A stretch of 64,000 nucleotides of DNA, from contig OY727095.1 in the NCBI GenBank assembly GCA_963402885.1, positions 23,131,001 through 23,195,000 of the forward strand, given 5' to 3'. This document shows positions 8,182-50,725 of the stretch, piece by piece. Below the pieces are notes generated by a model that was given only the letters and a program-made list of their open reading frames with translations, made no database searches and was not told the origin of the DNA. How positions within the stretch are numbered: the first letter of the stretch is position 1; each line of letters opens with the position of its first letter. The position numbers and the translations under genes are program-made. The DNA comes from Antedon bifida. Taxonomy: Eukaryota; Echinodermata; Crinoidea; Comatulida; Antedonidae.

Positions 8182-8333
8182 AGTCGCGTGCAACGCGACT
8201 CTACAGCTTACTATGTCGGTCGGTTGGTCGGTCGGTCGGTTGGTTGGTCGGTCGGTCGGTCGGTCGGTCGGTCGGTCGGTTGGTCGGTAAACACTAACTT
8301 GAGCACGCGACTGCAGCCATGTATATGGCCTTG
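8182..8333 (+). mobile_element. Tiny Helitron-like (HINE-type) element with GGTC core
   Basis: The left end is the near-perfect palindrome AGTCGCGT-GCA-ACGCGACT (8182-8200). The right side carries the inverse arm CACGCGACT (8304-8312), followed by the hairpin GCCAT-GTAT-ATGGC (8316-8329) and CTTG|T. The core 8214-8288 is a GGTC/GGTT tetranucleotide array. A palindromic left end whose arm recurs inside the right end just before a terminal hairpin, together with a GTCY-type microsatellite core, is the known layout of non-autonomous Helentron/Helitron2-type elements. At about 152 bp it has no coding capacity. Confidence 0.65.
8214..8288 (+). repeat. (GGTC)n/(GGTT)n microsatellite
   Basis: About 18 tetranucleotide units, mostly GGTC with interspersed GGTT, form the core of the surrounding small element. 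Confidence 0.95.
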
Positions 8334-9500
8334 TTTTATGCTGGATAGGATGGATTAAACAATCAGGAACGGTAAGATGGTTAAGCTTAGGCCTAATTTG
8401 TTATCAAATAATAAAATTGCACTAAAAGAAAAGGAGAAGCACAAACTTATTTAATTTTTAAAACCCAATTATGATTTCTTAATCATTAAGTGCTGAGTTA
8501 TAAACTAGAATATTGCACTGTAAATCATGCAGAACAGAAATAAATCCTAAGAACGCTGGGTGGTCTAAACATTGCTTAATTTCAACGTAGGGTTACAATT
8601 ATTCATATAAAAAATCATTCATTAGGCTAAAGGAAGAGGTGTTGCTTTATATTTGGAGAATGGTGTAGGCATATCAGGGACCAGTTGAAGACAGGTATGG
8701 GTAAAGATTTATATGGAGGAAAAGTATATACTTTTAGATTGTGTATGTAGTGAAATCAAAACAACTAAAAGTTATGTGAGACGTTGACGAAATATTTCAG
8801 TCAAGGAGATACAGGATGTTTTGTGATTGGAAACTTCAATTCAACTATGGCGAGATTAATTTGAAGCCTAAGCACTTTTTAAGGCAGGATTATTGATGCT
8901 GCTTTTGAAATCTTAGATTGTCATTAGTGATGTTTCTGTCTACCCACCTACTGACTTCTTTGATTAATGATACCGTTTTGTGTCATTTGACGTCCAGTAT
9001 TTGTTCACTAACATTCTGCTTTCAAAGACTAGTGACATTATTCTAGATAGAGTTTATAATAAGAATATATCACTACTCTCTTAACATAAATACGCTACCA
9101 GTAAGTAAACTAATTAGAGAGAAATTAATATGATTGCTACAGTATAAACAAATTGATGGTGTATCTGGCAATGGGATTGCATCTTGGATCCGTTTTATGA
9201 CTGAGTTAGAACATTTAACTATATTGTAACACTTCACAATTTGCTTGATGAGAAGTTGCCAGTTAAATTTAGCATTAAAGTTATCCTAAAATATTAATAA
9301 TTGACAGTTGTTGTTTTGTGCTATATAGTGTTAGAACTTATTGTACAGTAACTGTTTAAGTAGTTGCGTGGTGTAAAGTATTCTTTGAATATTCTGTGAT
9401 TGTGTTTACTTAGTTTTTTTATGTATGTTTTTTGGTCGCACCTTCACATGCCAGGTGGCACTGATACAAGTTCAGTACCATGATTACATTATTTTATTAT
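8334..9500. other. No recognised gene; possible eroded LINE endonuclease
   Basis: Around 8820-8850 the plus strand can be read as VIGNFNST, weakly resembling the GDFN box of LINE endonucleases. The context is too eroded to call. The rest is AT-rich and featureless. Confidence 0.3.
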
Positions 9501-9502
9501 TA

Positions 9503-10537
9503 CACTGTAAAAAATAATTCGGATTTTACACCATATTTTCGTGTAAATTTGTTTCCTCCTTGGAGTAAACTCCTTTTCCTTCAATTTGGGTGTAAGTTTT
9601 TAAGATTGTGAGTACCTCACAGTGGGAAACTATAATATTCCCTTCTTTTGAGGTAATCTAATAAAGTTACACATTCGGCATGGGTAAAGTCCGACGGTTA
9701 CACTACGAAAGGGGTAAACTTTCTCCGGAAGTTTCCCCCAAATGCGCGAGAATTGTATTACCCTGGATTCACAAGTAAGTGCGGAAAGCATGTGATATGA
9801 CGACTGTCGCGTGGAACAAGTGCATATTTTTAATAATTATTTTTATTTTGCATATAAGACCTATTTTTGCCTGATGACTTTTACATTGCTTATCCTAGAT
9901 TTCCGTATGATTACATTGTTTTTATTGTTATTTATTATTATTGTATGCCTAAATGTAGCCGACATGATCTAGCCCAGTTGTTAGTTGATTATCTTTGACG
10001 GTTCAAGTAATTTAATTGAAGAATGTTTAAACAAATGGCAAGCTCACTTTACTGCAGACCACGTTATTTCTGTGTTTTTCTATATTAATATCATTAAAAA
10101 TAAAAGATTTTAAAATAATATTTTAGAATAGAATAGTACATGGTAGGCCATATTTAATAAACATTTTTGTTCTGTAAATTTATGTTTAATTTTGATCAAT
10201 AAAAAATCATGTGATTTCTTCTTTTTTTTAATTTTGTTTCTGTTTTTGAGGAAAACCAACTTAAACCGACATTTTGGTGTAACCAGATTACCCAAAATAG
10301 TTGGTTGCTACTTTGCTGCCACCAAAAACTGGTGTAAAAAAACATTTCATTAAAAGTTGGGTATTGTAACCCGAAATACCCGGGTAAACTTAGTTTTCCC
10401 TGGCCAAGGAAACATCAACTTTCCCAATTTTTGGTAACATTTCCCATAGGGGGAAATCAGAGTTTACTCCACTAATTGGTGGCAGCCTGGTAGCACCCAC
10501 TTTTAGGGGAAAACTAAGCATATATTTTTTTACAGTG
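9503..10537. mobile_element. Terminal-inverted-repeat DNA element with TA target site
   Basis: The left end CACTGTAAAAAATA (9503) is matched by TATTTTTTTACAGTG at the right end (10537), and both outer flanks are TA (9501-9502 and 10538-10539). Inside each arm, words such as GGTAA, GTAAAC and GGGTA recur in both orientations, giving sub-terminal repeats. The 1.03-kb body has no sizeable open frame, so this is non-autonomous. A TA duplication suggests Tc1/mariner-like or a similarly TA-specific family. The superfamily is not assigned. Confidence 0.75.
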
Positions 10538-10539
10538 TA

Positions 10540-10869
10540 TAAAACTAAGACAAATAGATTCGCAAACTCATTTGTTCCGTCTATCGCAAGGTAGATAGAT
10601 AATAGGCATTTTTGATTTTGTTGATGATATGACTATGACTTGATATTGATGTAGGCCTAGATAACTTAAGGATAGAATTTAGTTTTTGTAATATTGTGGA
10701 CGAATAAAGTTTTCTTATCTTAATGAACAATTCCTGTCTATATCCAGATTTCGTGTAAGGTAGTAATTTACAAGCATTTGAATAAAGTAAGTCAACAATA
10801 AACATACCATAATTCAATTTAACTACACATTATATAGTTAGGTTATTCCTGTATAAATGTCGCATCTAC
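10540..10869. other. No recognised feature
   Basis: AT-rich spacer between the TA-flanked element and the candidate first exon. Nothing is recognised. Confidence 0.35.
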
Positions 10870-11229
10870 CATCATAAGTGTTTCCAAATAAAAGTTGAAA
10901 GTCTACACAAGACACATAGTCATTGCTGCAGCTCTACTGATTAATTCAACCAATCAGAACACAGAGATTTGACAGACTTTCGCGCGTGCTGCTGTGTGTG
11001 TGTACTCTGGTGTCTCTCGACTCTACATCATCATTCTGCATCCATGCTCTCTCTCCCCATGCTCTGTGTGTGAGAGCGGGCTCAAGTCGTCGATAAATGA
11101 TGAAGAAAAAAAGTGTGGATGTGAAAAAAAACCCTCTCATCCACCACAGACCCATGTCTGCGTGATTGGATAACACAAGTCAAGCGCACTGTGAGGTGAA
11201 CTACCTAGACTAGGCCTAGGATCAGAAGG
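10870..11229 (+). promoter_or_regulatory. Candidate promoter and 5' untranslated first exon
   Basis: Between AT-rich flanks lies a stretch of more balanced composition with CpG and CT/GT-rich runs (10975-11180). It ends at a strong splice donor, AGAAG followed by GTAAGTGA at 11230. A TATATAG word occurs near 10834. This is how a non-coding first exon of a plus-strand gene would look. No downstream coding exon is recognised in the window, so it stays a candidate. Confidence 0.3.
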
Positions 11230-11470
11230 TAAGTGATTTTATATAAAAATACTTACTAGCTAGCTATAACTAGGATGGCCTAGGGCTAGGCCTACCCTCC
11301 TTAGTTAGGAGGAGGCTAGGCCAGGCCCTTCTAGCTTGGCTAGGCCTAGCTAGGGCCTGTGTAACGCCAAAATTAAGTGAAATTGCCAAATTAGGTTCGC
11401 GTGGTCTGTATCACGCAAGGCTAGGTCACCTAATTCTGCAGCACGTTTCTGGCGCGGCGAGCTAATCGTG

Positions 11471-13105
11471 TTATTAGGTGATGATTTAGAATTAAAATGA
11501 TCACATATTGTTATTGTAAAATCAATAGGCCTAGTATTTATTTCTTTCTGTACATATTTTGTGTGTCAATTATCTCAAAAAGTTGAATGGCAATGATCAC
11601 AAGAATTTCACAATGTCTTTCAAATACTTTAAGAACTTAGTCCTAATAAGCTTTTCAGCGCGATCACTCATCCGTGATGTCATTTATACGCCATTTTGTG
11701 AAATCACATTAATATCAATCATATCTCCAATTCATTATCACATTAATGAAATTCACTACATGTAAACTTCAGGTCAAGGGTAAAAATATTATCAAATAAA
11801 AACGCACGCGCACGTAGGGGCATGCACGTTAAATTCGCATGTTAAAAATTTAAAAAGCTAAAAATTAAGTTTTGATCAATTTAGAGCATGAATTAGGCCA
11901 TTTGCGTGTTTAAAAAAATTACTGCGCAAAAAAAAAAGGTTTTTGCGCACGCGATTCTTAGAAAGCCTAAAAAATAAAATTTGATGTATAAATCACATTC
12001 TACTCACAGTCCTTAGTACATTCACCAAATTTGAGTCCATTCCGACTTAAAATAACGCTATACGAGCAGGTTAAAAATGACAAAATGCGCACATTAATTG
12101 CACAATAGTGCTGAAAATGGTTAAAAATAAGGCATTTTTAAAATAAAAATAATTCTTCAGAATGCACGGTGACCCCCAATTTTTTTAACTAATTCTGTTA
12201 GTCATTGAGTTGTAGATATGAATTCTTGTACACATTTGGCGTACAAAATGATGTGACGTCATCAAATGGCCACTTGAATTTAAAAATTAGGATTTTTTAT
12301 CCTTTTTTGTAGGTTATCATATTCAACAGAGTGCATCTCGGTTATTCATCTTGCTTTTCGCTCAAATTTCAGTATGTGCTTGCTAAATTAATTAACTTTA
12401 TCATGTATATTTTGATGACGTAATCACGACTAAAAACTTGAATGACGTAGGTCGTGTAATTCCACCTGCAGCGTATATTTGAATATCTCACAGCTCTTCA
12501 GAATTAAAGTTGACCTTGGTGATTATAATTTATTATGAAAGCTGATGAAATGTGGATATGAAGTTATAGAAAAATTAAGCCTATCAGATGTTGTGACGTT
12601 ATGATATGGCCAGTTGAAGTTAAAAAGTAGTTTTTTCATTTCTTTATTCAAAGTTATACAAATTTCAAAGAGCGCGCACCTCCCTTCTACGTGCCAAATT
12701 TTCTTCTAAGTCTTATATTTATTTGTTCAACTCATTATCTTTCGATATTGTTATCCATAAGTTTATTTTGATAATGTCATCATACCAAAAAATTAGAACA
12801 TGATGTGTGTCCGTAATTTCACCATATACTGAACATAATGTATATGGCATATAATAGGAACAACTCAACACTATAACAGTACAGTACAGTTTCGTTCCTC
12901 CCACTGATGCTAGTCGCATCTCTAGCATCCAAATATATGCTGGGTCCGACTGTTGAAGGGCTTCCTTGACTGGGTTAGCTTCTTAGCTTGACTAGGATCG
13001 CACTGAAGGAGATTGCTTAATTTAATCCAGGGGTCACAATAGTGTGGTTTTCGGGCTTGTGCAAAGAGCATTCGTATAAGCGTATAATAGGATGGCATAC
13101 AGTAC
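11471..13105 (+). mobile_element. Large Helitron-like element, copy A, 3' end lost and internally inserted
   Basis: The left end TTATTAGGTGATGATTT, followed by the partly inverted AAAATGATCAC and TTGTTATTG, matches the left end of the element at 38574. The body shares in order GTCAATTATCT, GCTTTTCAGCG.GATCACTCATCCGTGA, GGATGTTGTGACGTTA-type words and CATATAATAGGATGG. Relative to the 38.6-kb copy it holds an insertion of roughly 180 bp around 12890-13070. It lacks the terminal hairpin and CTAG end, being replaced from about 13106 by other sequence. Non-coding. Confidence 0.65.
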
Positions 13106-13188
13106 AGAAAGAAATTACTGCTTCGTAGCTACGCGTAGCCTTTCGTAGCCTACGCGTAGGTAGATCGTAGGTCATTGTTCTCTCTGAA

Positions 13189-13380
13189 CGTAGCCTACGA
13201 TGTATTGTTCGTAGCCTAAGATGTATTGTTCGTAGCCTAAGATGTATTGTTCGTAGCCTACGATGTATTGTTCGTAGCCTACGATGTATTGTTCGTAGCC
13301 TACAATGTATTGTTCTTAGCCTACGATGTATTGTTCTTAGCCTACGATGTATTGTTCGTAGCCTACTACGTTGTATTGTT
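13189..13380. repeat. 21-bp minisatellite, nine units
   Basis: Units of the form CGTAGCCTACGATG followed by TATTGTT repeat nine times. There are point variants (AAGATG, ACAATG, CTTAGCC), and the last unit has three extra bases. The preceding 13125-13165 is rich in related CGTAGCCTACGCGTAG words. The array sits exactly where the Helitron-like element is cut off. Confidence 0.95.
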
Positions 13381-13599
13381 ATGATAATTATCTACGCGTC
13401 GAGGTGTAGGATATTCTGGTAAGACAAAAAAAGTTATAGACTAGTTAAAAAAGTTCCTCCTTATATTAGTTTAAATTTTTCAAAATTTAAATTAATTAAA
13501 AAAGACTTTTGTATGGTATTGTATTATTTAAAATTATTATTATTTTACAATACACAATCAAAAACATTTTTATTTTAATAAAATTACTATACACTGTAC

Positions 13600-15338
13600 C
13601 TTGTAATCTTCACAGTATGGTTTTTTAGTAAGCATAATCTGCCACAAATCAAGGTATGACTTATCCTGTAAGTTTATTTGGATTAACAGTTTCATGTCAC
13701 TCCATTCATGTAATGCCTTCAACTTGTTATATCCCTGTCTGTATAAAATAATTATATTGGAAAAATAAAACATAAAATGATTAGAAAAAAAATGTGGATT
13801 AAGATGGACTTTCTGAAGAAAGTGGACTTTTTTTTGTCTTGCTCCTACTGCCTTTTAAGAGAAAGAACTTTAGAGAACAACAAATTAATTCAATTAATAT
13901 TCAATAATGTAATGTTCTGTTACCTTTCTAGTATATCTTCAAAATGATGAAGAAGGTATTCTACTTCACCACGACCATATTGAAGTAATTCTCGCTGATT
14001 TTTCGGCCAACTGTCATGGTTGAATATGTTAAATGCTGAGAGTGCTTTCTGTGGTGTTGTGTCATTGCCTACAACTTCATCATCTGGATCATTAAGAACA
14101 TTCTTAAACCTGTCTCTCATGTCCCTACAACTTGACAGGCCTGCTTAATCGAAGCAGTTAACCGCACATCAATCTCTAATCCAGTACCTTTCAGTTTAAT
14201 GCCCTGTATAATTAAGAAACATTGGTAAACATAGAACTTGGCAGAGAGTTTTAGGTAAAATACATGTCACTGAATTTATAATTAATTTTAATAATATTTA
14301 ATAAGTACTAATTACCTGAAACTGTACTTCTTCTTTGTCAATTGTTGCATTTTGAAGATACCCACCAATCTTTGGGCTGTCCTCAAAAGCTTCAATGCTC
14401 AAAATACACCTTAACCAGGGAATAATTTCGCCAGTGTAGCATAGCAAAAAGCTATACAAAACAACCTTATTGCTACACATTTCTACAATTGTGTAGCAAA
14501 AAATATAATACAAAACTATGTTTCTCGACTCAAAAATCAGTTTGATTAGCAATATTGCTAAACAAAATTTTATAAATTAAATTTTTTCCTGTTAACTGAG
14601 CCTTTGCCATTGGTAGTATCAGATCATTGCGCTGAAGTGTCAGTCTAAGCTGCTGGATCAGTAAACATGTCTGCCAGGAAGTGACTGAAAGCGGCAAACA
14701 TAATTGTTTCCATTTATTTTATCTATTTGAGAAGAAAATATTCATAATTTAAAAATGTGATCCATATGTGCATGGATTGCCCCATATTGACCAGCATCTG
14801 TCATTACATAAGGTGATTTAGTGAAGGATGTGAGTGATCTTGTAACAATGGCAATCCATCTTGTACCCTTGACATTTCCTGGATTCACCACAGTTATTCC
14901 AAGTTCTCTGCCAATTTGTCTAAGCTCCCTTTTGGATTTAGGGCTGAAATGATAGGTCTTCCACACCAAGTACAGTAAGTCATACACTTTCGTCACCATT
15001 GGCTGTTTTTTCAGCCCAGACAGTAATGCCAACTCAAGTTTGTTGATGATATTATTAACATTGCATTATAAATAAATGAGTGAAGGCTTGGACATAAAAG
15101 CTCATCATTGATTTAACAAAATATTTTTTAATATATGAAGATTTAATTCAATACCTGTGAGGCAAACAGTGCATTGGTATAATGTGTTCTCCTGCGCTCT
15201 CCCCGAGATGTACAATTACTCAACCTCTCTTTCCAAGATTAACACTTGCACCATCTGCTCCAAAGCCTACTACTTTCGACTTCCATCTTTCACCACAGCC
15301 TGTGTTGTTGAATATGTTCTCCACTTTAGAAAAAATCC
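13600..15338 (-). pseudogene. Intron-containing hAT transposase-derived gene (ZNF862-like), broken
   Basis: Six exon-like blocks are read on the minus strand. (1) 15338-15155: VVGFGADGAS ... IPMHCLPH, donor CACAG|GTAT, acceptor TTTTGCAG. (2) About 15047-14742: LELALLSGLK ... GTRWIAIVTR. (3) About 14720-14585: HFLADMF, then after a frame slip LTLQRNDLILPMAKA. (4) About 14400-14316: EAFEDSPKIGGYLQ, donor CAG|GTAATT. (5) 14203-13924: LTASIKQACQVV, then DMRDRFKNV, donor AAG|GTAACA. (6) 13738-13600: LHEWSDMKLLI and LDLWQIML, donor AAG|GTACAG. DGAS, CHR/LELA and TRW are hallmarks of this hAT group. Lesions are a TGA at 15222-15220, one-base slips in blocks 3 and 5, and no AG at the expected block 2 acceptor. 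The C-terminal dimerisation domain is missing. Confidence 0.8.
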
Positions 15339-15849
15339 CTGCAAAATTAACAGGTGTATATTTTTAAAATAAAGTTTGTACAGTGCTAATAGTATTTATA
15401 CTTTAAAAAAAAAAAAGTAAATAAATAATATCTGTTCCTGGGCTCCTCTGATCTTGTCACTGTGTGTAGAGAGGTCTAGGATAGTAATCACTCAGCCTTT
15501 TAAATCTTATATACAGGCCCATTACTGTGTAGAGTGTAGGCCTACCCTAGTTAGTAAAACAAGTAGAGTAGGCCTAGGCTAGGCCTAGATTAATATTATT
15601 TATAATACTGTTTTGTGATTTGCTATCCAGGCCTAGGCTGAAGAATTTAATTAAACAAAACGCTTCCTTAATTCTTTTATTCCGTACTCAATTAGACATT
15701 TTAATAACCGTTGTTAAGTCGTCGAATTTTGTTGCTATGTAATTTTATTGTATTAACCTTTTAACTATGAATGACCTGGTTTAATGTTTTTAAAGTAATA
15801 TATATGTATTATTTTTACAAAAACGTCACAATTTGAATTTGTAGGGAAG
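15339..15849. other. No recognised gene; TAGGCCTA cluster
   Basis: The stretch 15530-15640 is rich in TAGGCCTA words. Nothing coding is seen. Confidence 0.4.
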
Positions 15850-17075
15850 GGGTCTTTAATTGAGCACCCATCATCTTCGTACGCAATTCTTCACTCGGCT
15901 CCTCACTAAAACACCCTCCTTCAACAAAATCATTCAATTGTCTCTCTGCCACCTCAACAAACCCTTTCATCAACTCTCGCAACATTCTCCGTCATCTCAT
16001 CAGTCCTGTCACTTTCTCTCAATTTCATCCAAATTTCATTATCTTCATTCATTTTGAAAGCATGAAAAATTGAAACTGGCGTACTTAATAATAAACTGCT
16101 GTCCTCGGACCATAACTTAAATGAATTTAACATAGCTTGAACATACTTGAAGAAATCAACATATTGTGTATCACTTAAAAGTAACCAAAATGGACCAGTA
16201 ACTGAAAAATAAATTAATCCTAATGCTCTAATTAATGACATAATTTCACAATTTATACAGTCGTGCAAAACACTTTCTACTTTCAAATTCAAATTATCTT
16301 TAAAATTAGTAATAAAATCAATGATCATGATGATGAAAATAAATAGTATCAACACCTTCAAAAAAATTATTAAATCGATTCATTCTAAATGAAGAAACTA
16401 AAGACTAATACCCTTTTTAAAACAATAACCCTCCCACTCTGGTCTTGCCCCATTCTTTTGATCCCCACGTGGCCCTAAAATATCACAACCAGTTCTAATC
16501 AATGTCGAAGTAGCAGATTCCCCTGCAGATTGAAACCTTGCAAACTTCCCCAAACAATCCTTACCCAACCTTGTACCTAATTGTTTAATTAAAGAACATT
16601 CAAAGGTTTTTAAAATTAAATCTGACTTGTTGGACAAACCCAACAAAAAATGTGCATTACAAAACAAGTATTTTAAATCATCAACACTATCACCACAAAC
16701 ATCATTCCTATATTCACTCAATAACTTATTACATTTCTTATTCACACTCGCTCTGTCATTCATCGTCGCTCTCAACTTGCTCAGCATCTGTCTCTTCAAA
16801 TTCTCTCTCTCATTCTCATCCTCCAAATATGTCAAATCATCCAAGAACTGCATCACACACTCTAATAGAGTAACAGAATCATCACTGGCAATTGATGAGA
16901 ACCCACCTGATAATATTTTTCCATTATTAAATAGGTCCCAACTCTCACATTCCTTCATGCTCTCCTTCAATTACAATTCACACAAAACTTGATCAATAAT
17001 ATTATTTGCTGTTGAAGCACACTAGGGTACATTTTTCAAATTAACATTAAATAAATCAGTTTCCACTCCTGCCAT
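15850..17075 (-). pseudogene. Uncharacterised element-borne protein family (TMNDRA/GPRGD/ALGL motifs), copy 1
   Basis: A minus-strand frame can be followed from an ATG at 17075 (MAGVETDLF) through two stops into 16970-16398. That part has TMNDRASVNKKCNKLLSEYR, a CNAHFLLGL box and GCDILGPRGDQKNGARPEW. After a frame change, 16361-15954 has LNLKVESVLHD, ALGLIYFSVTGPFWLLL and SDTQYVDFFKYV. The same motif order occurs in the 51-52.3 kb copy. I recognise this as a repeat-borne family found widely in echinoderm and cnidarian gene sets without an assigned function. A transposase or recombinase role is a guess. This copy is split by stops and a frameshift and lacks the family's C-terminal end. Confidence 0.7.
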
Positions 17076-17149
17076 TATGTATTATATATAGTAAATTTAC
17101 TCGAGTAAACAGGTCATTCCCTGTATAGACCAGGAAGAGTTCACGCAAA

Positions 17150-18560: not shown

Positions 18561-19148
18561 AAAAGAGCTAATGTCAGGTTTATCCAGGTAAGCGGCACTC
18601 GTAGACTACCAACACCATTTCTGGTTTGTGTAATTTAAAGAAGGTAATGGTGCTCCTGGTGGCTGCATGAATGTGGACCGGTTGATGCCTAAGGCATTGC
18701 ATCTATCACCTTTGACAAACAAACAATATAGGAAACCATCAGGTCTAGACATTTTTGTATAATTTTCAATACATTTTTTTCAACTCAATTTAAAGGATGT
18801 AATTATCACTTAAATATAGTCCATAATATAATTAATTGTTTTTTTTGTTAGTCAAATTGAAAAAAAAGCAGCTAGCGAATGAAATAAACATTGCTGTATT
18901 ATTGTTTGTTTGCAACCAGGTTTAAAATTATTTATACTCTGCAATATTATTGAAACAAATTATAAAACACAGAACAACAAAAAGACAACTTCAGTTAGAA
19001 TTTTAAAAATACATTTCTTTATTTCAATTTTAAAAAGTTACAATTCTAGTTATTGTTTTGTTAACAATTATTAAAATACTAATACCTTGTTTTAGTAGTG
19101 ATAATCAATTAGTACAACTAATTATTAAAACAATCTTGCCTAAACTAA
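18561..19148. other. AT-rich sequence up to the LTR element
   Basis: No gene is recognised. It ends in the target site CTAA (19145-19148) of the LTR retrotransposon. Confidence 0.4.
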
Positions 19149-19741
19149 TGTAATGTAACGATATTCACTTATAATTGAGAAATCAACCTTTGTATCAGAA
19201 TCCAATTGAGTTCACAAACTTGACCCAGGAAGTCCAGAGGAGAGTTTGTCCAGATGTTTTAAAGACCATTAGTTTATAATAAGAATCCCTAAAGAAAACA
19301 CTTAGTTTAACATTTGACCTTTCCCATCGTTAAACCAGGAGAGATTGACACTATTTAAGTACAGATTTGACAGTGTCATCCATCATTGAAATACCTTATT
19401 ATACCGTTAATCACTCCCACTTAAACACCCCTGGACCAACTTAGAACCAATCGTTACCCTCACAGATTACGTAGTGACATATGTAAATGAACCGAAGCCG
19501 ATATACTCCCAAGTTTCAGAAGAGCCCAAACACACCTTACAGCCACTTTACAGAGCGCACACCTTACAGCCACTTTACAGAGCGCACACCTTACAGCCAG
19601 CATCACTAATCCTCTGTTCCTTAGTCAGTTAGTTATTCAGTTATTGTATCAAGTATATTCTGAATAAATAATATATGTTACGACAGCAAAGCGAGTAAAG
19701 AGTCTTCCTTACAAAGTACCTCATAACAACATTATATTACA
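19149..19741 (+). repeat. 5' LTR
   Basis: It begins TGTAATGTAACG and ends ATTATATTACA. A 27-bp direct repeat (CACACCTTACAGCC ... CAGAGCG) lies at 19531-19557 and 19558-19584, with a partial third copy to 19599. AATAAA at 19663-19668 is the likely polyadenylation signal. It drives transcription of the element as U3-R-U5; exact R borders cannot be read. Confidence 0.96.
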
Positions 19742-19756
19742 TGGTGGAAGACCCAA
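19742..19756 (+). other. Primer-binding site
   Basis: TGGTGGAAGACCCAA directly follows the left LTR. TGG pairs with the CCA end of a tRNA. The tRNA species is not identified. Confidence 0.75.
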
Positions 19757-27262: not shown

Positions 27263-27289
27263 GAAAAAAAAAACAGGGAAACAGAGGGA
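27263..27289 (+). other. Polypurine tract
   Basis: An A/G-rich run with one C in its A-stretch, ending AACAGGGAAACAGAGGGA, directly precedes the right LTR. It is the expected plus-strand primer. Confidence 0.85.
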
Positions 27290-27882
27290 TGTAATGTAAC
27301 GATATTCACTTATAATTGAGAAATCAACCTTTGTATCAGAATCCAATTGAGTTCACAAACTTGACCCAGGAAGTCCAGAGGAGAGTTTGTCCAGATGTTT
27401 TAAAGACCATTAGTTTATAATAAGAATCCCTAAAGAAAACACTTAGTTTAACATTTGACCTTTCCCATCGTTAAACCAGGAGAGATTGACACTATTTAAG
27501 TACAGATTTGACAGTGTCATCCATCATTGAAATACCTTATTATACCGTTAATCACTCCCACTTAAACACCCCTGGACCAACTTAGAACCAATCGTTACCC
27601 TCACAGATTACGTAGTGACATATGTAAATGAACCGAAGCCGATATACTCCCAAGTTTCAGAAGAGCCCAAACACACCTTACAGCCACTTTACAGAGCGCA
27701 CACCTTACAGCCACTTTACAGAGCGCACACCTTACAGCCAGCATCACTAATCCTCTGTTCCTTAGTCAGTTAGTTATTCAGTTATTGTATCAAGTATATT
27801 CTGAATAAATAATATATGTTACGACAGCAAAGCGAGTAAAGAGTCTTCCTTACAAAGTACCTCATAACAACATTATATTACA
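27290..27882 (+). repeat. 3' LTR
   Basis: 593 bp in register with the left LTR throughout and apparently identical, including the 27-bp internal repeat (27672-27740) and the AATAAA at 27804-27809. It is followed by CTAA (27883-27886). Confidence 0.96.
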
Positions 27883-29988: not shown

Positions 29989-29991
29989 TAA

Positions 29992-31038: not shown

Positions 31039-31041
31039 TAA

Positions 31042-35820: not shown

Positions 35821-35824
35821 GTAA

Positions 35825-38573: not shown

Positions 38574-39465
38574 TTATTAGGTGATCATTTAGAATAAAAT
38601 GATCACCTATTGTTATTGTATGAAATCTTTTTTTTTTCTTTCTGTACAGATTTTGTGTGTCAATTATCTGAAAAAGTTAAATGTCAATAATCACAAAAAT
38701 TTCAGAATATCTTTAAAATAATTTAATTTAGTCATAGTTAGCTTTTCAGCGTGATCACTCATCCGTGACGTCATTTATACGCCATTTTGTGAAATCACAT
38801 TATCAATCATATCTCCATAACTCTTTATCACATATCAATAAAATTCACTATACGTAAAATTCAGCGTAAAAACTTGAATAATGTAGGTCGTGTAATTTCA
38901 ACTTCGCCGTAAATTTGAATATCTTACAACTCTTCAGAATTGAAGGTTACCTTGATGATTATAATTTATTATGAAAGCTGATGAAATGTAGATATGAATT
39001 TATATAAAAATCAAGCCTATCGGATGTTGTGACGTTAACATATGGCCAGATGAAGTTAAAAAGTAGTTTTTTCATCTTTTTCGTCAAATACAAATTTCAA
39101 AGAGCGCATACAGCGCTTCTACGCGCCAGATTCTCTTCCAATTCTTATATTTATTTGCTCAATTCATTATCTTTCGAAATTGTCATCTTCGAGTTTATTT
39201 TGATAATTCCATCATACCAAAAAAGTAGAACATGATGTGTGTCCCGTAATTTCACCTATGCTACACTGTATATAGATATACAGTATATACTGTACATATT
39301 GTATATGGCATATAATGGGCACAACTCAGCACTATAAGCATATAATAGGATGGTATACATCAACATTTTTTGATCGTATGTTAATGTATGTGCAAAAAAA
39401 TAATTTCAGTAAAAGGATAAAAATGATCACCTATAATTCGTCAAAGTGACGAATTAAATTCTAGT
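38574..39465 (+). mobile_element. Helitron-like non-autonomous element, copy B (both ends present)
   Basis: Left end TTATTAGGTGATCATTT with its inverse AAATGATCACCT forming a hairpin (38579-38608), then TTGTTATTG. Near the right end the arm recurs as AATGATCACCTATAA (39422-39436). It is followed directly by the hairpin AATTCGTCA-AAG-TGACGAATT (39435-39455) and CTAG|T (39461-39465). Hairpin plus CTAG termination ten bases downstream is the Helitron 3' signature. The repeated arm is the asymmetric inverted repeat of Helentron-type elements. The 892-bp body is non-coding. Confidence 0.8.
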
Positions 39466-41085: not shown

Positions 41086-41548
41086 ATGGGATGGGAGTTT
41101 TTGCGAGAGATTTTTGTGGACACATTCGAAATAAATTTCATGATGAAAACACCTTACACTACTAGATCCAGAATTATACATTTACGCGACCATGGTAACA
41201 CTGTCAAACAGATACAGGAAACGCTCAACGATGATGGCATAAAGGTACACGACACAACGATTCGGCGAATTTTGGAACAATTTAATAGCAATTCGACGAT
41301 TGCCGATAAAGCTCGCACTGGCCGACCCAGTCAATTTAGAGAGGAACACTTGGCAATTATAAACAACGAAATGAATGCCAACTCAGAATTGAATTCAAGT
41401 AAACTGCGGGATATATTGCAAGAGAAAACAGGCTGTAAATTTTCAGACAGATCCGTAAGACGACGACGTAGGAGACTGGGATGGGTTTGCGAAGGTGCAA
41501 GATATTGCCAATTAATAAGAGCAAAGAATCGCATTGATCGATTTGACA
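41086..41548 (+). pseudogene. Tc1-like transposase, N-terminal DNA-binding part only
   Basis: The 158-codon frame has two helix-turn-helix units (TRSRIIHLRDHGNTVKQIQE ... VHDTTIRRIL; then ADKARTGRPSQ with the GRP linker; then LNSSKLRDILQEKTG ... SVRRRRRRLGWV). It ends with GARYCQLIRAKN, the usual bridge to the catalytic DD34E domain. The catalytic domain is absent: at about 41548 the sequence switches into the opposite-strand BEN exon. The first residues (MGWEF...) may not be native. Confidence 0.8.
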
Positions 41549-43090
41549 TTCTTTCCATCTGATATCCATTTCTGCAACAGGGGCTGGAGCTAAGTTAAAC
41601 ACTTCAGTCTTAATGTAGTCCAGTCGCGTCGAGTCGAGCAGCGCTGTTTTGTCCTGATGTGTTGCAATTGCGTCTTTCTTCCTCGGTAAAGTAGTATTCA
41701 GTCAATAGTCGTGCCATCTTTAGTCGATCGTCAGTAAAGCTAAGTAGTCGTCGTCGTAAGTCCTGTGGTATTTGATGTGGGTCAGTGTTCAATGGTGGTT
41801 GGTGTTGTGCTGCTTGTGGCTGTTGCTGTCTGATGGTAGTTTGTTGTTGAAGTGTTGCCATAATGTCAGATACCTGATGCAGTGTTGCGATTTCGTTTGT
41901 TTTCTGGTCCAGTAGTTCTCATAGCTGTTTGTTTTCGTCCTTTATGTCTTTTAGTTGGTCTTCCGCACGTCCCAGTCTAAGTTCAAGTCGGTCTTGGCGA
42001 CGCTCCATCTCATTCTCATCATTTCATCTGTCACTCGCAAATGTCATTTCCTTGTCGTAGTCGTTGGTCAGTTCGTCTAGTGTCTGGTCTGCATTGTGGA
42101 GGTCGATGTTGTCGGTGTCATAGATCATGAATCGGTTCTCAAATTCTTCTTCGTCAGAGTCAGCAGTTGGTGGTAGCGGCGGATGAGTTACTTCTATAAC
42201 TGTCGCAGCCTACATAAAATATAAACAAAAGAAACTTCATTAATCGACCTGCAAAAATTACGTAATTAATAAGGGACACATGTAGAGTTATGGTTTTGTT
42301 TTTTTTTTTGGTTTTCAAGGTATTAAAGATGTATTGTTTCTGGTATGTTATCTACATTATCGCCATCACCATTGTCGCCATCATCACCATTGTCACCATC
42401 ACCATCAATACCATAGTCGAAATCACCATCAACACCATCGTCATCTTTGTCAACTCGTTCGTCGTCTGCCTCTGTCATAAATTCGTATGGGATCGTTTCC
42501 CCCGTTTCTGCTTTTACCTGTATCAGAAAAAAATATTTAGTTTAAACATTTGCCATACATTTAAAAAACAATACATTGGTTGGGTCAAGTATTTTAACTA
42601 ACAATAAATTTAACAATATCATTTTTTAATTTAAAACGGGCAACAATATCATTTTTGGAAATATGTAAAACAATTTAATTAAAAGGCGACCTATTCCTTA
42701 ACATTTTTTAAAGAGATGATCGCCGTTTGAACTAAAATATCATAAAGCCAAACAAAAAAATGAATGTCGATTACTCACCTCTGATGCAAATATATCATTA
42801 AACTTAACAGCAACTGCTGGTCCTCTCAATCCTGATGCTAGTACTCATTGGACCAGGTCTCCTCTTTGTAACTTTTTACGGTCGCCTGTCTCCGGAAAGT
42901 TTTCGCGGTTGATCTTACATTGTCGTTTCTTTATTGGAAGTCTTACGTACTGTAATTTGACGTGGCTTACAGAATTAAAGCCAGTCCAGGATACTACAAC
43001 GGCGTCGGGATAAACTCCCTTAACAGTTCCTCGTAACCAAATACCGGAATCTGGGTCAATAGCTTGTATAGCTTGTCCGCGTTTAAACAT
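41548..43090 (-). pseudogene. Tudor-like/BEN-domain gene with acidic middle, interrupted by TGA codons
   Basis: Exon 1 (43090-42779; ATG start MFKRGQAIQAIDPDSGIWLR, then GTVKGVYPDAVVVSWTGF, donor CAGAG|GTGAGT) looks like a Tudor/SH3-type barrel. Exon 2 (42517 to about 42356; acceptor CTGATACAG) is strongly acidic, with repeated DGD/NGDDGD. Exon 3 (42209 to about 41548; acceptor TTTTATGTAG) has an acidic start (SDEEEFENRF), a coiled coil (ERRQDRLELRLGRAEDQLKD) and glutamine-rich sequence. It ends in a BEN-like domain (LLTEYYFTEEERRNCNTSG ... ARLDAT, then DYIKTEVF after a slip near 41620). In-frame TGAs are at 42847-42845, 42026-42024 and 41921-41919. The last BEN residues are cut by the Tc1-like fragment. 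BEN proteins bind DNA and chromatin; the role here is inferred. Probably a recently dead gene. Confidence 0.65.
42356..42450. repeat. Degenerate CCATCA/CACCAT hexamer repeat
   Basis: On the plus strand this is a CCATCACCATTGTC-type array. On the minus strand it encodes the aspartate/glycine-rich middle of the BEN gene, so it may be coding-repeat expansion. Confidence 0.7.
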
Positions 43091-43335
43091 TTTGTAACAG
43101 TAATATAATATAATTCGATAATGATCAGCAGCAACTAAGATTGGAATGGTGGAAACATTGAGTATTGCTAAGGTTTTTATACTTATTTCCATGAATTGAA
43201 ATATTTATATTGTTTTTTTACAATAACTGTTGTTTATGTGCGGGAGATTATTTCGACAATATCGTCGTTTATTTATTAATTTATAGTAAAGAAACAATAA
43301 AATATTTATTTTTTAATTGAACATACACTTTTTTT

Positions 43336-44386
43336 GGTTATCCGCACTTGGCGGATAACCCTTTGTTATTGTCACGATCTTTTTCTTTTTCTATATTCTT
43401 CTTTCTTTCCACGAATTTTGTTCGCAGCGTATCTCTAATTCTGATCAACATAAGATTGCATAACTTTGTCATAAGATTGACCTGTAGCTGTAGATGTGCA
43501 AGAAACTTCGTTATATGACGTTAAAGTCGCGCAGCTTAAGTTATGCGCGATTTTATAAATTTCAATGATTGATCATAGATTATAAACCAAAAGTCATTTT
43601 GTATTGACACTTGGTGAAAATTTAAGTCATATCAAGGGCAAACTTTCTATGGATTAAAAATGGCATGTTTCACAAGAAGTTTTTAAATTTAATATGTAAG
43701 CAGATATGTTGTAGATATGAATTCATGCAGAATCTTTACCCCTCGGATGTTATGACGTCATCGTATGGCCACACGAATGTAAAATATAGGATTTTTTACT
43801 CTTTCATTATATTGCTCATCACATTAAATAGAGCGCATCTCGCTTTTCATACGTATTCCATTTCCACAGATATTTTAATACTCTCTAGGTCAATCAACTA
43901 TCTTTCGCATGAGTTAAAAATATTTTAATTTTTATGACGTCATGTATAAAAATGTAAATAACGTGGGTCCCCTATTTTCATCTTTACAGTAAATTTCAAT
44001 CTGTTATGGCTCGTCAGAATAAAAAGTGATAATCATGATTAAAACGTTTTCTGGAAGCTATTGGATTGTAGATACGAATTTATGTGAATATTTTGCCAAT
44101 CAGATGTTTTGACGTCATCATATGGCCAGTTGAATTCAAAAAGTCATATTTTCATCTCTTGCGTAAAAGTTCATTGCGTTTAAACGAGAGCGCATCTCTC
44201 TTTTACGTGCCCAAAATTCTTTAAATTTGTATTAATGTAATTATTTAGATAATTATCTTCTAAAATTGTTATCTTTATATGTCAATTTGATGACGTCATC
44301 GTGTTAATAATTGGATTTAAAAGATGGGTCTCGTAATTTCGTCTATGGTACACTGTAATATGCTGTATTGACGAGTTCAAATATAG
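43336..44386 (+). mobile_element. Helitron-like non-autonomous element, copy C, right end eroded
   Basis: Left palindrome GGTTATCCGC-acttg-GCGGATAACC (43336-43360), then TTTGTTATTGT. The body has two related halves, each with GGATGTTATGACGTCATCGT or GATGTTTTGACGTCATCAT and ATGGCCA. The right end keeps only GACGAGTTCAAATATAGT, the outer half of the terminal hairpin and an ATAG end, compared with the 50.7-kb copy. Non-coding. Confidence 0.75.
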
Positions 44387-44559
44387 TTAATCGTTTGGTT
44401 TTATATAAAATGTTTTTACTACATAAAAACTCACGATAGCGAAATTTAATTTGGCGTTCGCGAAATAATGGTTTGTAAACAAAAATTATATGTTCCCGCG
44501 ACTCTGGGAGCCTCGTCTGCTAACACTGAGGGCGCTTGACTTTTTCTGATATCTTAACA

Positions 44560-47500
44560 CTAGTTGAAACAGCTGTGTGGGTAAATCAAATCAAAAATGG
44601 GCAGAAATTGCATGAGGGAATTACTGGGAGTGCCGTTGGTGGATATTGAAGACACTTTTTTGTTGGACGGTATAATTACCATTGATAACACTAACAGCGA
44701 TCTGGAAACGGTTGGTGGAAGAACGGTAACTTCCGTCTGGTGTTGCGGTGGCTGTTGTTGATTTGGTGGAGGGTGACGACTTCCGGTGACGAGGGCTGAG
44801 CAGGTTGTGATGGCTTCCGTGTGGTGGTTGTAGCGATGGTGGTGGTTGCGAGGTGACTGCATTCAATATTTTCTCCAGCATTGTTTCCATAATTTGCTGC
44901 TTTTGAGTTAGCTGGTCAATTTTTCATGCAATACTTTGCAGTCAGTGCAATTTTGACCTGTTAAAGAGATATAATATATATGATAATAATTGGTTAGTAT
45001 AGATATATTGTCACTTTTTAGGAGGGGTGGGAGGAGTATCAGTCTTCATCTTAATTAGATTCTAATTTTACTGGTGACACAAACAATCTTAAATACTGCG
45101 TTACAAATGAGTCATAGTATTACTATTACAACAATCTAATTTGACTATTTTTTTGCTTTAAATTACAGTTTTTTCAAGTAAATATTTGTTTTCCCATCAA
45201 ATTTTTGGTCAAAGTGGATAACTATTATGTGAAATTAAAATGGCATGCAAAAACAAAATTTAAACATTTTTTTTCAGGGGAACAATACAATCATCCTTAA
45301 AAATTATAAAAATGTACGTTTTTTGTAGGAAGGGGTCAAGTTGTATTTTCTCCACAACAAGATAAAAGTGCATGTATGCATTTGAAAAACAAAAGAAAAA
45401 ATAAACTTACGGCGAATGCCCATCTCTTTGTTAGGGAAATCGTGGATGATACTGTAATCATTGCTGCTACTAGAAGTTGCGTCTGGTGCAGATGTATCAG
45501 TGTCAGCACATGTAGCGTATTGTGTAGCATCTGGGTTTTTTTAGCGGTGCTGCATTATCATCTAAAAAAAAAAGCCCTCATTAAATACAATGTAAAAAAT
45601 ATATTACAATAGGAATTATTAGTTTTAGTTTATACGTACTCAGATGATGAAACATATCTCTGTTAAAATAAACTTAGTTAAACATTATATAGCAGTTACT
45701 TCCTGTGTATATAATAATGGGATATCCATATAATGAAACATTAATATAATAATAATAATAAATATAGTTAGAAATATGTGTATATCGATAGAAAAAATAT
45801 ACTGTCTGTATATATAATGAAACATATTTCTGTTTAAAAAACCTTAGTTAAAAATATAATTACTAGGTATCCCAATGAAAGCGCACAGAGGGGTATAACT
45901 TTTGAATAAGTAATATGACTTTGATGGTAAATAAATCGTATGTACTCTTAATTAATACTTACAAAATTTATATTGTTTGAAAGTACTTGTTTTACAATTA
46001 AAATTAATGGAGTAGTTGCCGAGAAAATGCGATTTTAAAACGGTACTAAAATCCTGTTGAGCCGATTTCCGCGCGTTGAAAACCTCATCGGAAAATCCCA
46101 TACAGTTTTCAAAACACGATCGCATTGAAGCTAGCTATTTTTGTTGTATGTTATCAGGCTTTAAATGAGCTTTAATTTGATATGAAAATCGTCTTCTATA
46201 AATGTGTTTTTCGTAACGAAAAGTTTGAATCACTGTTTATGGAAAAATATTATGGATTTTGGTATTAAATTATAGCTAAATCTACATTAAAATCGATAAA
46301 ACATAGATTACATTGTTACAAACGTATTGTGCATGGTAATTGTGCGAACTACATTTTAAAATGGTGCATGAGGCATAAATCCCGTTTTAAAATTTTAAAG
46401 ATTCAACCATTATAATCCGGTGAATATTGTAGTGTAGTGTAGCAACATCAGATTCAGATTCTTCACCAAGTTTGACTGAACTGAAAGATGCATTACTTAT
46501 TGGCTAGCTAGATAGTAGCCTACTCTACAGCTAGAGGGGCCTGTGGCTAGGCCTAGAAGCATCTAACAAAATAATTACAAATTTATTTTCAATAGCATAA
46601 TAGTTCAATCTGTAAGAAATAACTATATAGCGAACTTCAAAACAGATCTGCCTAGGCCTAGCTACTAGTTCTATACAGATGGACAGACCGAAATCTCAAT
46701 GAATTTCATTCTGTACATAATTACAAATTTCCACAAAATAAACTTCAAATAACATTATAATTGCATGATAATCAATAAATACTTGATCGACCTAAAAGAC
46801 ATATAGAGAAATATCAGGAACTCGCACATCAAGTACTGTAAGGAGAAACTTAACGATAAAAAATGTAATTAAATAAAAACGTTTTGTTTGTTTGAAAAAT
46901 ATGTTAAGTTAAGATTCAATATTGAAAAAACACCTACCACGTTTCGCACGGTAATTAATTCGGCGATGCTAACCTTCAATGTCGTTATTTGTACGGACAA
47001 CTTGTTGGTAGACGACCCAGTCACGAGGTGTAAACATGGTTCCGTAGATCCAGGTTGTTCGGTAGTAATCCATCAACTGTGTGCTGGAACGTCAACAATC
47101 TCATCCTCGATGTACATGTACACTTCAAAATGTTCAACAGGAACAACAGGCAGTATCATCAGGTGGCGAACAATCATGTGAGTGTCAGGATCCGTCCGGT
47201 ATGCGCGTTGTAAGCCCAAATCTTGGACCTTTCGAAAAATGGCCTGCAATTATAAATTTAAAAAAAAAAGCTGGAAGATTAGATTTCTGTAATACAGGCA
47301 ATGAAAATCCTAGACGACCTGCAATTATAACAAGAAAAGTGTTATTTTGCTGCAAATTTAATTTTCTCTTTAATCACAGAGACAGCCTGCAATTATGTGT
47401 TATTTTCCTGCAAATAGATTTCTCTGTTAAAAAAAAATGTTCGTTAAAATTTAATTTTCGTATCACTTACTTGTGTGAAATGAAAAAGGTAACCAGTTGG

Positions 47501-48830
47501 GCGCACTCTGGGAAAAACTGTCCTAAGAAATTGCCACAAAGATGACTTGTAGTCTGCAACTATCTTCCTTGCGCTCACCATTGATCTAAGTACTGTGTTG
47601 TAATCCACTACCCTCTTCACACACATAACGGCGAAGAGCAGGGGACCTGTTTCTGCGCTGCCCCAGACTTCATAAACGCATTTATCGAAAAGAGTTGGTA
47701 AAACGTATCTTTTACCACTTTGAAAGCGCCATCAATGTACCTGTAATGACACAAAAAAAAATTTTGCCTTACAAGATTTCAGAGACAAGAACACCTGTAA
47801 TGAAAAAAAAAAAATGTTAGCTGAATGAAAGGATTCATTTGACGTTACTTGCCAAACTTTCGACCTTTGCTTTGGATGTCTTAGCGCAGAAAACCAGGGA
47901 GGATGTGTTCCTCGTCCAATTCAAAAGCAAGATGGTTTGGTCGAGTAAGTTTCCTCTTTAAATTCACCTGCCGAGCAAGGTTACAGGGTTTTGGTAGCGA
48001 TGGATGTAGGGCGACATTTCCAACTCCTATATCCTCACGCAAGATCTGTAACGAAATTTTCATATTTATAAAAAAAAATGCAAAATTTGTAATACAACAC
48101 AGGAGTTTAATTCAACGATTTTAGCACGGAGCGCATAAGAAGGTATATGATATTTGTTGAAGCAATGTAAAAAGCATGGCACGCGAGGGAGGATGTGTGT
48201 GTATTTGTTTAGGATTTGTATCTGCAGTTTAAAATTATGAAATTATTATATATTAAAATTTAGTTAATTACCTTCTCTGCCATCTCAGCTGCTGAATCAA
48301 ACGGATTATCAACTGCCTGAGTCTTCAGGTCGCGTCTTATCAGTGCTACCTTTTTTCACCCTAAAAACATGAACATTGCGGTGCGGTGGTTCTAACAAAA
48401 AACATTGGGGTGGTTTTAATCCAAAGACATTGCATATTATTAATCCAGATATTCTATATTAAATTAATTTTTTTTTTAACGCATCTTGAGCACTCTTGTG
48501 TGGTATAGTTACAATTATTAGTTACAATTTGCGATAATTAATTGAAATCGGTCATTGAAATTTAACATTATATAAATAAATGAACATCAGATATATACAA
48601 ATAATAATTGAGTAATGTATTGTTTGTAGATTTGCATGACGAAAATGATTAAGATGTTAACTTTTGGTTAATCGTTACCTGGAATCATGTCGTAGACATG
48701 GTCCTGTGACCCACGAATATATCCCCCATTACGTTCCGTTACTATCGCTTTGCATGTCACGTTTTTATTACGAACTAAACATCTCCAAGTCACTGTTGCA
48801 CAACCTTTTTGGTGTACTAATAACCGATGC
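44560..48830 (-). pseudogene. FLYWCH-MULE transposase gene with introns, broken
   Basis: Exons on the minus strand: 48830-48679 (FLYWCH-type finger: TWRCLVRNKNVTCKAIV ... GSQDH, donor CCAG|GTAACG); 48360-48272 (LIRRDLKTQAVDNPFDSAAE, donor AAG|GTAATT); 48045-47849 (GNVALHPSLPKP, FELDEEHILPGFL, then TAA); 47740-47471 (RYIDGAFKVVKDTFYQLFSI, the MULE catalytic start with Asp, then after a one-base slip VPLLFAVM and GYLFHFTQ, donor GTAAGT); 47243-46938 (AIFRKVQDLGLQRAY, DYYRTTWIYG, RTNNDIEG then TAG at 46971-46969 where Trp is expected); 45561-45411 (acidic/serine-rich, donor GTAAGT); 44950 to about 44560 (coiled coil IDQLTQKQQIMETMLEKIL, then a proline/serine/glutamine-rich tail). GT-AG signals are preserved while the frame is not. 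Confidence 0.8.
45950..46440 (-). repeat. Dispersed repeat, copy 2, inverted relative to 28.96-29.4 kb
   Basis: It lies inside the MULE gene intron. Shared words with copy 1, read on the minus strand, include CGATCGTGTTTTGAAAAC and CCTGATAACATACAA. Confidence 0.55.
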
Positions 48831-49131
48831 TATCAGCCAACGTGTAATATAATTATTGAAAACATGTATACATAAATGAACATAACAGATCCAATACATT
48901 TAAAAATATGTATACTGTACGTATAAAAATATTATTATTTTGGCCTATCCATGACATGACAGATCCGAATCTGTAAATATAACAATATTAGTTAAGTAAT
49001 TTGCGGCGATAATGTAATTGAATTAGGTAATCTCTGTACAAATTAAACAGATTCAAAACATAAAAACACTAATTGAGGCATGTCATCACAAAATCGGCAT
49101 AGTGTCGGAAATAATAATTTTTTAGATTTTT

Positions 49132-50725
49132 AGTTATCCGCTTGGTATACCAAGCGGATAACTCCTTGTTATTGTATGAGATCAACAGTTTTTTTCTGTA
49201 TTATGCTTCTTTCCATCCTTCCTTTTTGTGGATCGCGTTTCTCTAAAATGTGTAAACATAACATTTCATAACTTTGACAACATATGGGCATTTATGTGAA
49301 GTTGTGCACCTCCTATTTTTGAATGACGTCATAGTTGCGCAACGTGACTTACGCGCAATTTTATGAATTTCAATGATTGATCATAGATTAAAAACCAAAA
49401 GTCATTTAGTATTGACACTTTGACAAAATTTAAGTCATATCAGGGGCAAACTTTCTACGGATTAAAAATGGCATGTTTCACAAGAAGTTACGCGCGTACG
49501 CGCATTTAAAATTTCAAAATGCGCAAAATTAATTTCTAATCAACTTTTTATGCGTTTCTTGTCATTTTGAGCATGTCAAAAATTCCCACGGGCGCGCAAT
49601 TTTTTACGCACGCGGTGCGCATGTAGCGTTAAAAATATATTTTTTTCTCTTGAATTATATTTTTCAAGCCTTTCCTAGTAATTTTAAAAACAATTTAGAC
49701 CTTTTCCAGTTTAAATAACGCCACACGAACACGTTGAATTAGACAATTCGTGCGCGTTTTTTATGAAAAAGCTTTAAAAATCGTCAAAATAATGTCTTTT
49801 TTTAAACAGTCATAGTTTCTAAAGTAAACCGTGAACCGTTTATTTTTATTACAAAATCTAGAAGTTGATGAGTTGTAGATATCGGATCATGCATCGATAA
49901 GGCTAAAAAAACATTTTGACGTCATCGTATGGCCACACGAATGTAAAATATAGGATTTTTGTCTCTTTCGTTATTGCTCATCACATTCAATGGAGCGCAT
50001 CACGCTTAACAGTAATCCTTTTTCTCCTACATTTATATATTGTCTAGGTCAATCAACTTTCTTTAGCATGAGATAAAAATATTTTAATTTTTATGACGTC
50101 ATCATGCCTAAAAATTTTAATTACGTGGGTCATTAATTTCATCTTTACAGTAAATTTTAATCTGTAATAGCTCGTAAGAATAAAATGTGATAATCACGAT
50201 TAAAACGTTTTCTGGAAGCTATTGGATTGTAGATACGAATTCATGTAAACATTTCGCCAATCGGATGTTGTGACGTCATATGGCCAGTTGAATAAAAAAA
50301 GTCGTATTTTCATATTTTGCGTAATAGTTCATCACATTTAAAAGGGTGCGCATCTATATTTTACGTATTCAAATTTCTTCTATACGTTAATATGTTGTTC
50401 CTGAGATAATTTCCTTCTGAAATTGCTATCTAAGTGTTTCATTTTGATACCGTCGCCATGTTAAAAATTGGAATAACTGGCGGGTCCTGTAATTTCACCT
50501 ATTCTACACTGTATGTAATATGTATACAGATTATACTGTTTGCATGTATATACTATATGACACAAAATTGACAGAATTCAGCACTAACAGCATATCATAT
50601 TCTTCAGTTCTTGTCATAATGCCATAATCTTTATCTGTGTGCAATATTCCAACGTATGACATGCACGTGGCGTTTGTCGTGGTGCGGATAACTAACTCGT
50701 CAAAGTGACGAGTTTCATGTCTAGT
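49132..50725 (+). mobile_element. Helitron-like non-autonomous element, copy D, both ends intact
   Basis: The left end is a perfect 32-bp palindrome, AGTTATCCGCTTGGTA plus its inverse (49132-49163), then TTGTTATTG. The right end has the arm GCGGATAACT (50684-50693). The hairpin ACTCGTCA-AAG-TGACGAGT follows directly (50695-50713), then TTCATGT and CTAG|T (50721-50725). The body shares the TGACGTCATCGTATGGCCACA and ATGGCCAGTTGAAT modules with copies A-C. At 1.59 kb it has no helicase or Rep frame. Confidence 0.85.

Follow-up and report, generated by a model that had tools for sequence, protein, structure and literature searches.

A 64,000-nucleotide stretch of the genome of the crinoid Antedon bifida (GenBank assembly GCA_963402885.1, contig OY727095.1, positions 23,131,001 to 23,195,000 of the forward strand; hereafter the window) carries four copies of a transposon family, found at 11471, 38574, 43336 and 49132 as a first-pass annotation of the sequence had claimed. 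Taken as a whole, the evidence makes it very probable that this is a Helitron2/Helentron-type, HINE-like family consisting of two subfamilies, each with its own matched repeats. In this interpretation the palindrome at the left end would be formed by the 5' asymmetric (subterminal) inverted repeat folding back on itself, and the arm set just before the terminator hairpin at the right end would be its 3' partner. The two main subfamilies, here types 1 and 2, would each possess their own matched repeat pair, with type 2 split again by the outermost base pair, and would have in common the hairpin core, the motif that follows the palindrome and a T-rich insertion site.

Both strands of the window were scanned blind for a left palindrome, one half of which is repeated directly 5' of a second hairpin at a spacing of 120 to 4000 bp, and 10 dinucleotide shuffles of the window served as background. 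The scan returned two of the copies, B and D, exactly, and nothing more; there were 0 structures in the 10 shuffles. Copy B (type 1; 38577..39464, plus strand, as are all features given below for the window) is 888 bp long compared with 1592 bp for a full-length type 1 element. Its left palindrome, TAGGTGATCATTT/AAATGATCACCTA (38578..38609), is the putative 5' asymmetric terminal inverted repeat (ATIR) with its hairpin, and its right arm, AAATGATCACCTA (39421..39433), the putative 3' ATIR; the terminal hairpin TAATTCGTCA-AAG-TGACGAATTA (39434..39456) is followed by AATTCTAG/T, with CTAG extending to 39464. Copy D (type 2, AGTT subtype; 49131..50724) has the same plan with both ends present, namely, a left palindrome AGTTATCCGCTTGGTA/TACCAAGCGGATAACT (49132..49163), a right arm GCGGATAACT (50684..50693) and a terminal hairpin AACTCGTCA-AAG-TGACGAGTT (50694..50714), then TCATGTCTAG/T, with CTAG extending to 50724. 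These results bear out the earlier claim of two left-palindrome types and of right arms in B and D that match each copy's own palindrome. Neither B nor D contains an open reading frame (ORF) of ≥110 amino acids, counted from stop to stop. When folded and compared with shuffles, the palindromes of B, C and D gave z scores of -7.5, -6.4 and -12.1, respectively, and the decayed palindrome of A gave -2.2. Relaxed scans, whose shuffles yielded 0 or 1, added an element at 8182-8329 and a false right end within B, as well as CGTATACG matches clustered at 52.8-57.6 kb and a single match at 34.1-34.6 kb.

The two remaining copies are incomplete. Copy C (type 2, GGTT subtype; 43336..44386, delimited by sequence reading and blastn) has a left palindrome, GGTTATCCGC/GCGGATAACC (43336..43360), and is without the right arm and the 5' half of the hairpin. 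What survives of its right end after this deletion is the final 18 nt, TGACGAGTTCAAATATAG at 44369-44386, one base from the TGACGAGTTCAAATCTAG of its relatives; plain local alignment of the D tail against C did not detect this residual end. The right part of C has relatives of 96% identity genome-wide. Copy A (type 1; 11473..12876) aligned to B in blastn at 82-84%; its left palindrome is decayed and its 3' limit is the last aligned stretch, 12840-12876, with no recognizable right end found by sequence reading or alignment. The GTCA-AAG-TGAC-type right hairpin and CTAG end, attributed at first to all four copies, are present in full in B and D and in C as the last 18 nt only; for A the attribution did not hold. 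The family body contains a diverged internal duplication of about 340 bp. Downstream of copy A, at 13168-13398, lies a tandem array with the 21-bp unit CGTAGCCTACGATGTATTGTT.

Analysis of the ends refined the initial description of these elements as Helitron-like. The 5' ends read T-TAGG or T-RGTT, without the 5' TC of canonical Helitron1 elements, and the inverted end repeats and 5' hairpin, neither of which belongs to Helitron1, are present. The features found are those of the Helitron2/Helentron group: a short palindromic or hairpin inverted repeat at or near the 5' end, the same repeat in a subterminal position 5' of the 3' hairpin, and noncoding non-autonomous copies. In type 1, the 5' flank reads T-[TA]-[AT]-T before TAGG (with the two outer T's in 20/20 and a single C at the second place), and in type 2 the same pattern is followed by one more T before RGTT (T's in 24/24, with one C). 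On the 3' side, a T follows CTAG in 30/30 cases, this T being part of the search pattern, and a second T follows in 29/30. Read as sequence, these flanks would fit insertion between T and T. The end structure therefore supports classification of the copies as non-autonomous rolling-circle transposons of the Helitron2/Helentron kind (HINE-like).

The palindrome and arm are the ATIR, or subterminal inverted repeat (subTIR), that defines Helitron2, Helentrons and their HINEs, and their pairing has already been published for the class; paired ends in this family are therefore expected behavior. In Helitron2, the 5' ATIR makes a 5' hairpin and the 3' ATIR lies directly 5' of the 3' hairpin, as here; two related elements (CQu 1N1/1N2) show compensatory changes, the two ATIRs have been proposed to pair as replication ends, and some elements carry a reversed RepHel (Bao and Jurka 2013, PMC3627910). 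The reversed orientation recurs in the Antedon RepHel-type ORFs described below, whereas the 3' CTAG, and the lack of a recovered autonomous element with both ends, set the present family apart from these Helitron2 elements. Helentrons insert at TT targets and have palindromic subTIRs, whose identity defines their families, and an OTU domain has been reported (Thomas 2014, PMC4067079); related DINE-1s have different subTIRs, three in D. willistoni alone, with compensatory stem changes inferred between species (Yang and Barbash 2008, PMC2374699). Our family resembles Helentron/HINE and DINE-1 elements in its palindromic subTIRs, 3' stem-loop, probable TT preference, T-rich boundaries and noncoding copies; it differs in its 3' CTAG and mixed nested arrays. 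The Cg_HINE of the Pacific oyster (PMC7492417) likewise has an element-specific subTIR, its inverted repeat and a 3' stem-loop, with central satellite-like arrays where the present family has its diverged ~340-bp duplication. The FoHelis of Fusarium (PMC5148889) have hairpins at both termini, two subgroups with differing ATIRs, TNAT/T insertion and self-insertion composites with several 5' termini, although in other hosts and with other end sequences; their TNAT/T site and the TT site of Helentrons are close to the flanks described above. With canonical Helitron1 (PMC3627910, PMC5148889), the family shares a CTRR-like 3' end and a 3' hairpin, but it has inverted end repeats and a 5' hairpin and lacks the 5' TC. 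The family matched no named one in the open-access literature, in which no search was aimed at this family or species.

We then extended the analysis to the whole 315.6-Mb assembly (27 contigs). The pattern CGTCAAAGTGACG-N4..16-CTAGT matched 4157 right ends of the family, and the reversed pattern, used as a control, matched 0. An exact type 1 arm joined to a type 1 stem occurred 1616 times and an exact type 2 arm joined to a type 2 stem 2102 times (reversed-pattern controls, 0 each), while the exact crossed patterns, type 2 arm with type 1 stem and type 1 arm with type 2 stem, each occurred 0 times genome-wide. In order to pair right ends with left ends, 56 right ends were followed among 100 places listed from the head of contig C1; these comprised 28 of 30 loci (L052 and L053 were left out) and 28 further places. 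For 55 of the 56, between 1.38 and 1.9 kb of upstream DNA was inspected (1.45-1.8 kb for 35 of them), and for the other, L055, the left end lay inside the locus itself. In the 28 loci, the body between the ends was read and held no other right end; the stacked cases L068, L085 and L112 were scored by their innermost left end. A left palindrome was found for 41 of the 56 right ends, and none was present in the examined stretch for 15 (6 and 9 in two batches). Left and right types agreed in 21/21 type 1 pairs and 20/20 type 2 pairs (Fisher 3.7e-12). Within type 2, the outermost palindrome base (A or G) agreed with the last arm base (T or C) in 20/20 pairs, 17 of them A-T and 3 G-C (P = 9e-4). 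The claim that left and right ends change together is thus supported in every followed copy with both ends (41/41), and the covariation check proposed for a genome-wide collection, run here on 56 right ends, revealed no independent assortment and 0 crossed pairs in 41. The outer ~10 nt of the type 2 palindrome, which the arm repeats, varied little, and the inner part varied widely between copies with similar bodies. Inner variants were often self-complementary (AACT/AGTT, AACC/GGTT and TTGG/CCAA), and others (ACTTG, TTGGTAGA and TTAGTA) were not. At loci L009-L028, the palindrome centers differ strongly, many being self-complementary, as if the hairpin tip had been rewritten.

The first-pass annotation had further proposed a joint replacement of palindrome and arm in copies with common body modules. 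Comparison of the bodies lent no support to this in that form: the types differ along the whole element, with 60-63% identity. Body identities were taken from blastn and MAFFT; one pairwise aligner that gave 75% on shuffled sequence was set aside, and one MAFFT alignment that placed the left end of B wrongly was unused for that end. By blastn, A and B were 82-84% identical and C and D 76-79%, versus 63-69% across types. Full-length elements were of nearly equal length (1592 bp for type 1, reconstructed from L029/L059, 1593 bp for D and 1591 bp for a C-type copy), and in MAFFT alignments, for which there is no shuffled baseline, the full-length type 1 element was 63% identical to D and 60% to the C-type copy. 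Per 100 columns, again with no shuffled baseline, identity between types was 38-63% over the first 600 columns, 33-39% over the last 100 before the hairpin and 53-81% in between; over the last 28 aligned columns it was 82-86%. The TTGTTATTG-like motif, the hairpin core and CTAG were kept across types, and both types are alike in the motif after the palindrome and in the flanking T pattern. Homology of the two palindromes through gradual drift was tried and rejected: the arms aligned no better than shuffles (4009/5000 scored as high or higher), so the arms are informative about neither drift nor replacement. On sequence comparison, types 1 and 2 look like two old, diverged subfamilies of one family that have kept matched ends.

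Copies insert into each other's T-runs and behind each other's right ends, across types. At five loci that were read (L009, L023, L025, L027 and L114), a right end was followed by a fresh left end near CTAGT, by the resumed body of an older copy or by unrelated DNA. The older body resumed at element position 60-91, just beyond the T-run, and stacked left ends were ~50-75 bp apart. On contig C12, seven left ends of both types stand in a row (four detected by the end finder and three by reading) at 2533-3201 of locus L118 (C12:16125733-16126400), and at 140 places a type 2 left end lies closely, within a few tens of bases, behind a type 1 left end. At L025 and L028, the order was AGTT-left, GGTT-left, CC-right, ACT-right, like matched brackets. 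At five places an AGTT left end precedes a GGTT-type element. Re-mobilized hybrids were considered here and rejected; the sequences show an AGTT left end and an inner GGTT element, with an ACT-type right end beyond in L025 and L028, which is nested insertion. In an array of 12 right ends at C1:9946162-9963653, pure nesting predicted ~11 stacked left ends at the 5' edge, and 2 were found, both type 1, with 9955851-9965079 outside the fetched DNA; this shortfall arises in part because new copies also sit directly behind right ends. Right ends of several subtypes are mixed in this array and at L023 and L114. Two tails have a mosaic look, both within type 2: an ATAACT arm with a CAAATCTAG tail at L023 and an ATAACCA arm with a TCATG tail at L049.

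A RepHel protein supplied in trans would be expected to move these copies, and a search was made for the partner. RepHel-type ORFs (Helitron_like_N, 186 bits; PIF1, 174 bits) were found in reverse orientation behind the seven stacked left ends on C12, arranged as a 606-amino-acid ORF containing the Rep domain and another ORF for PIF1. The ~300 bp that follow the innermost of these left ends match the 5' end of the family at 79%, and we regard the C12 RepHel as a candidate partner. No AP endonuclease domain, which in Helentrons is fused to RepHel, was detected in the five C12 ORFs scanned. In the genome as a whole, PF14214 had 39 matches, of which 11 lay in ORFs of 3003-3182 amino acids; the one ORF of this class that was scanned matched OTU and DUF6570 upstream of its Rep domain. 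A scan of viral contigs for the right end gave no match. The search for an autonomous partner carrying RepHel has thus yielded RepHel-type ORFs beside stacked left ends, where ~300 bp of 5' sequence are shared with the family, and not an element with both ends.

Several observations weigh against the interpretation of two subfamilies with matched Helitron2/Helentron-type ends. A RepHel element complete at both ends was not recovered: the sequence beside the C12 RepHel gave left ends, and the fetched stretch ends before a right end. The scanned OTU-bearing ORF, ~3150 amino acids long with a Helitron_like_N domain, lies at C8:19816895 and has no left end of the family in the 3.3 kb upstream. The CTAG 3' end, seen in B and D and built into the pattern for the 4157 matches, has the canonical CTRR form. 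Roughly 440 of the 4157 right ends, as estimated by subtracting counts of unlike patterns, fall outside both exact arm patterns and could hold crossed or third arms, and L041 has a type 1 tail without a recognizable arm and without a left end. All 56 followed right ends lie within the first 14.1 Mb of one contig, and for the 28 further places the comparison covered the ends alone, with the arms taken from the exact-pattern matches. A second sample, picked by similarity to copy C and so biased to C-type bodies, gave together with the window 27 elements paired by the end finder, of which 5 were mismatched at the outermost base (AGTT left, CC right) when the nearest left end reported was used, so that 20/25 genome pairs agreed fully; on reading, the finder had overlooked an inner GGTT palindrome in these five, and the nearest left end then agreed in 25/25. 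Finally, the 41 pairs represent two clades and one subtype split rather than independent changes. Because copies share descent, the P values make the evidence look stronger than it is; most of the left-right association is explained by plain descent, and no more than two or three independent, coordinated changes can be seen.

Within the interpretation of matched subfamilies, selection or the copying process would keep the two repeats alike, both being needed in one transposition, and the repeats may serve either as duplicate sites for one protein or as partners that pair with one another. The first of these roles leads to the hypothesis that each end type has its own sequence-specific RepHel, with the palindrome and arm being two copies of one protein-binding site and the subfamilies following two autonomous partners; we put its chances only a little short of even. 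The differing layouts of the RepHel-type genes, a 606-amino-acid ORF plus a PIF1 ORF on C12 compared with single ORFs of 3003-3182 amino acids, are consistent with this, as is the tie between end type and whole body, which separate lineages would give. However, the hairpin core, post-palindrome motif and flanking T pattern shared by the types would also suit one common protein, and no RepHel is tied to either type at both ends.

Alternatively, the repeats may pair on single-stranded DNA, the 3' ATIR opening the 5' hairpin and marking the end of replication, as in the proposal of Bao and Jurka (PMC3627910). The word could then drift if all three copies changed together, and one RepHel could serve both types. 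This explanation is a serious contender, which we nevertheless hold to be somewhat more probably wrong than right. It agrees with the behavior of the type 2 palindrome, in which the arm repeats just the little-varying outer ~10 nt and the variable inner part is often self-complementary, with the 20/20 agreement of the outermost base, and with the hairpin core and target common to both types. Nevertheless, the same pattern would result if a protein-binding site were conserved at the two ends, some inner variants are not self-complementary, and two or three independent changes, no more, are visible.

Exchange of palindrome and arm as cassettes between elements with the same body, through end-swapping, hairpin synthesis or template switching, appears improbable. 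Cross-type nesting at 140 places offers the opportunity, and the mosaic-looking right tails of L023 and L049 are what such exchange might leave, but crossed pairs numbered 0/41 and crossed arm and stem combinations 0 by exact pattern; moreover, the type differences run through the whole element, and the mosaics stay within type 2. Chance palindromes or an assembly artifact have next to no likelihood, given thousands of copies against 0 in the reversed-pattern controls and 0 in 10 shuffles.

The window also contains other repeats. An unrelated HINE-like element of the same plan, ~150 bp long and with an uncertain 3' limit, was detected by the looser scan at 8182..8335. It consists of a palindrome (8182-8200), a TCGG/TTGG microsatellite, an arm (8305-8312) and a hairpin (8316-8329), and represents a third, unrelated palindrome/arm pair; its palindrome folded with a z score of -3.7 and its right end with a weak -1.2. 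Identical 300-bp direct repeats at 19148-19447 and 27289-27588 flank long ORFs of 318 and 1571 amino acids, the first with a zinc knuckle, a unit that we take to be a young Ty3/Gypsy-type long terminal repeat retrotransposon. At 52768-59511 there are two copies of repeats with abundant CGTATACG palindromes, separated by about 4.7-5.6 kb. The ORF at 41086-41559 has Tc3-type and homeodomain-like helix-turn-helix matches just under the Pfam cutoffs and is likely a transposase fragment.

The family constitutes a natural experiment on how such ends are recognized: at least 1616 and 2102 exact right ends share a core and a target, differ in their word and come into frequent contact, with no crossed pair among 41. 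We know of no experiment that has tested the recognition of Helitron2/Helentron ends. A bolder hypothesis, which we consider unlikely on present evidence, treats the paired repeats not as a protein site but as a code matched against itself: a single RepHel would move both types, mobility would require that an element's palindrome and arm can pair, and the word could change without restriction as long as both ends agree. If this were true, two diverged words that coexist and nest without producing a crossed element would be the trace left by such a requirement. These observations make protein recognition versus end-to-end pairing a choice that can be tested within one genome.

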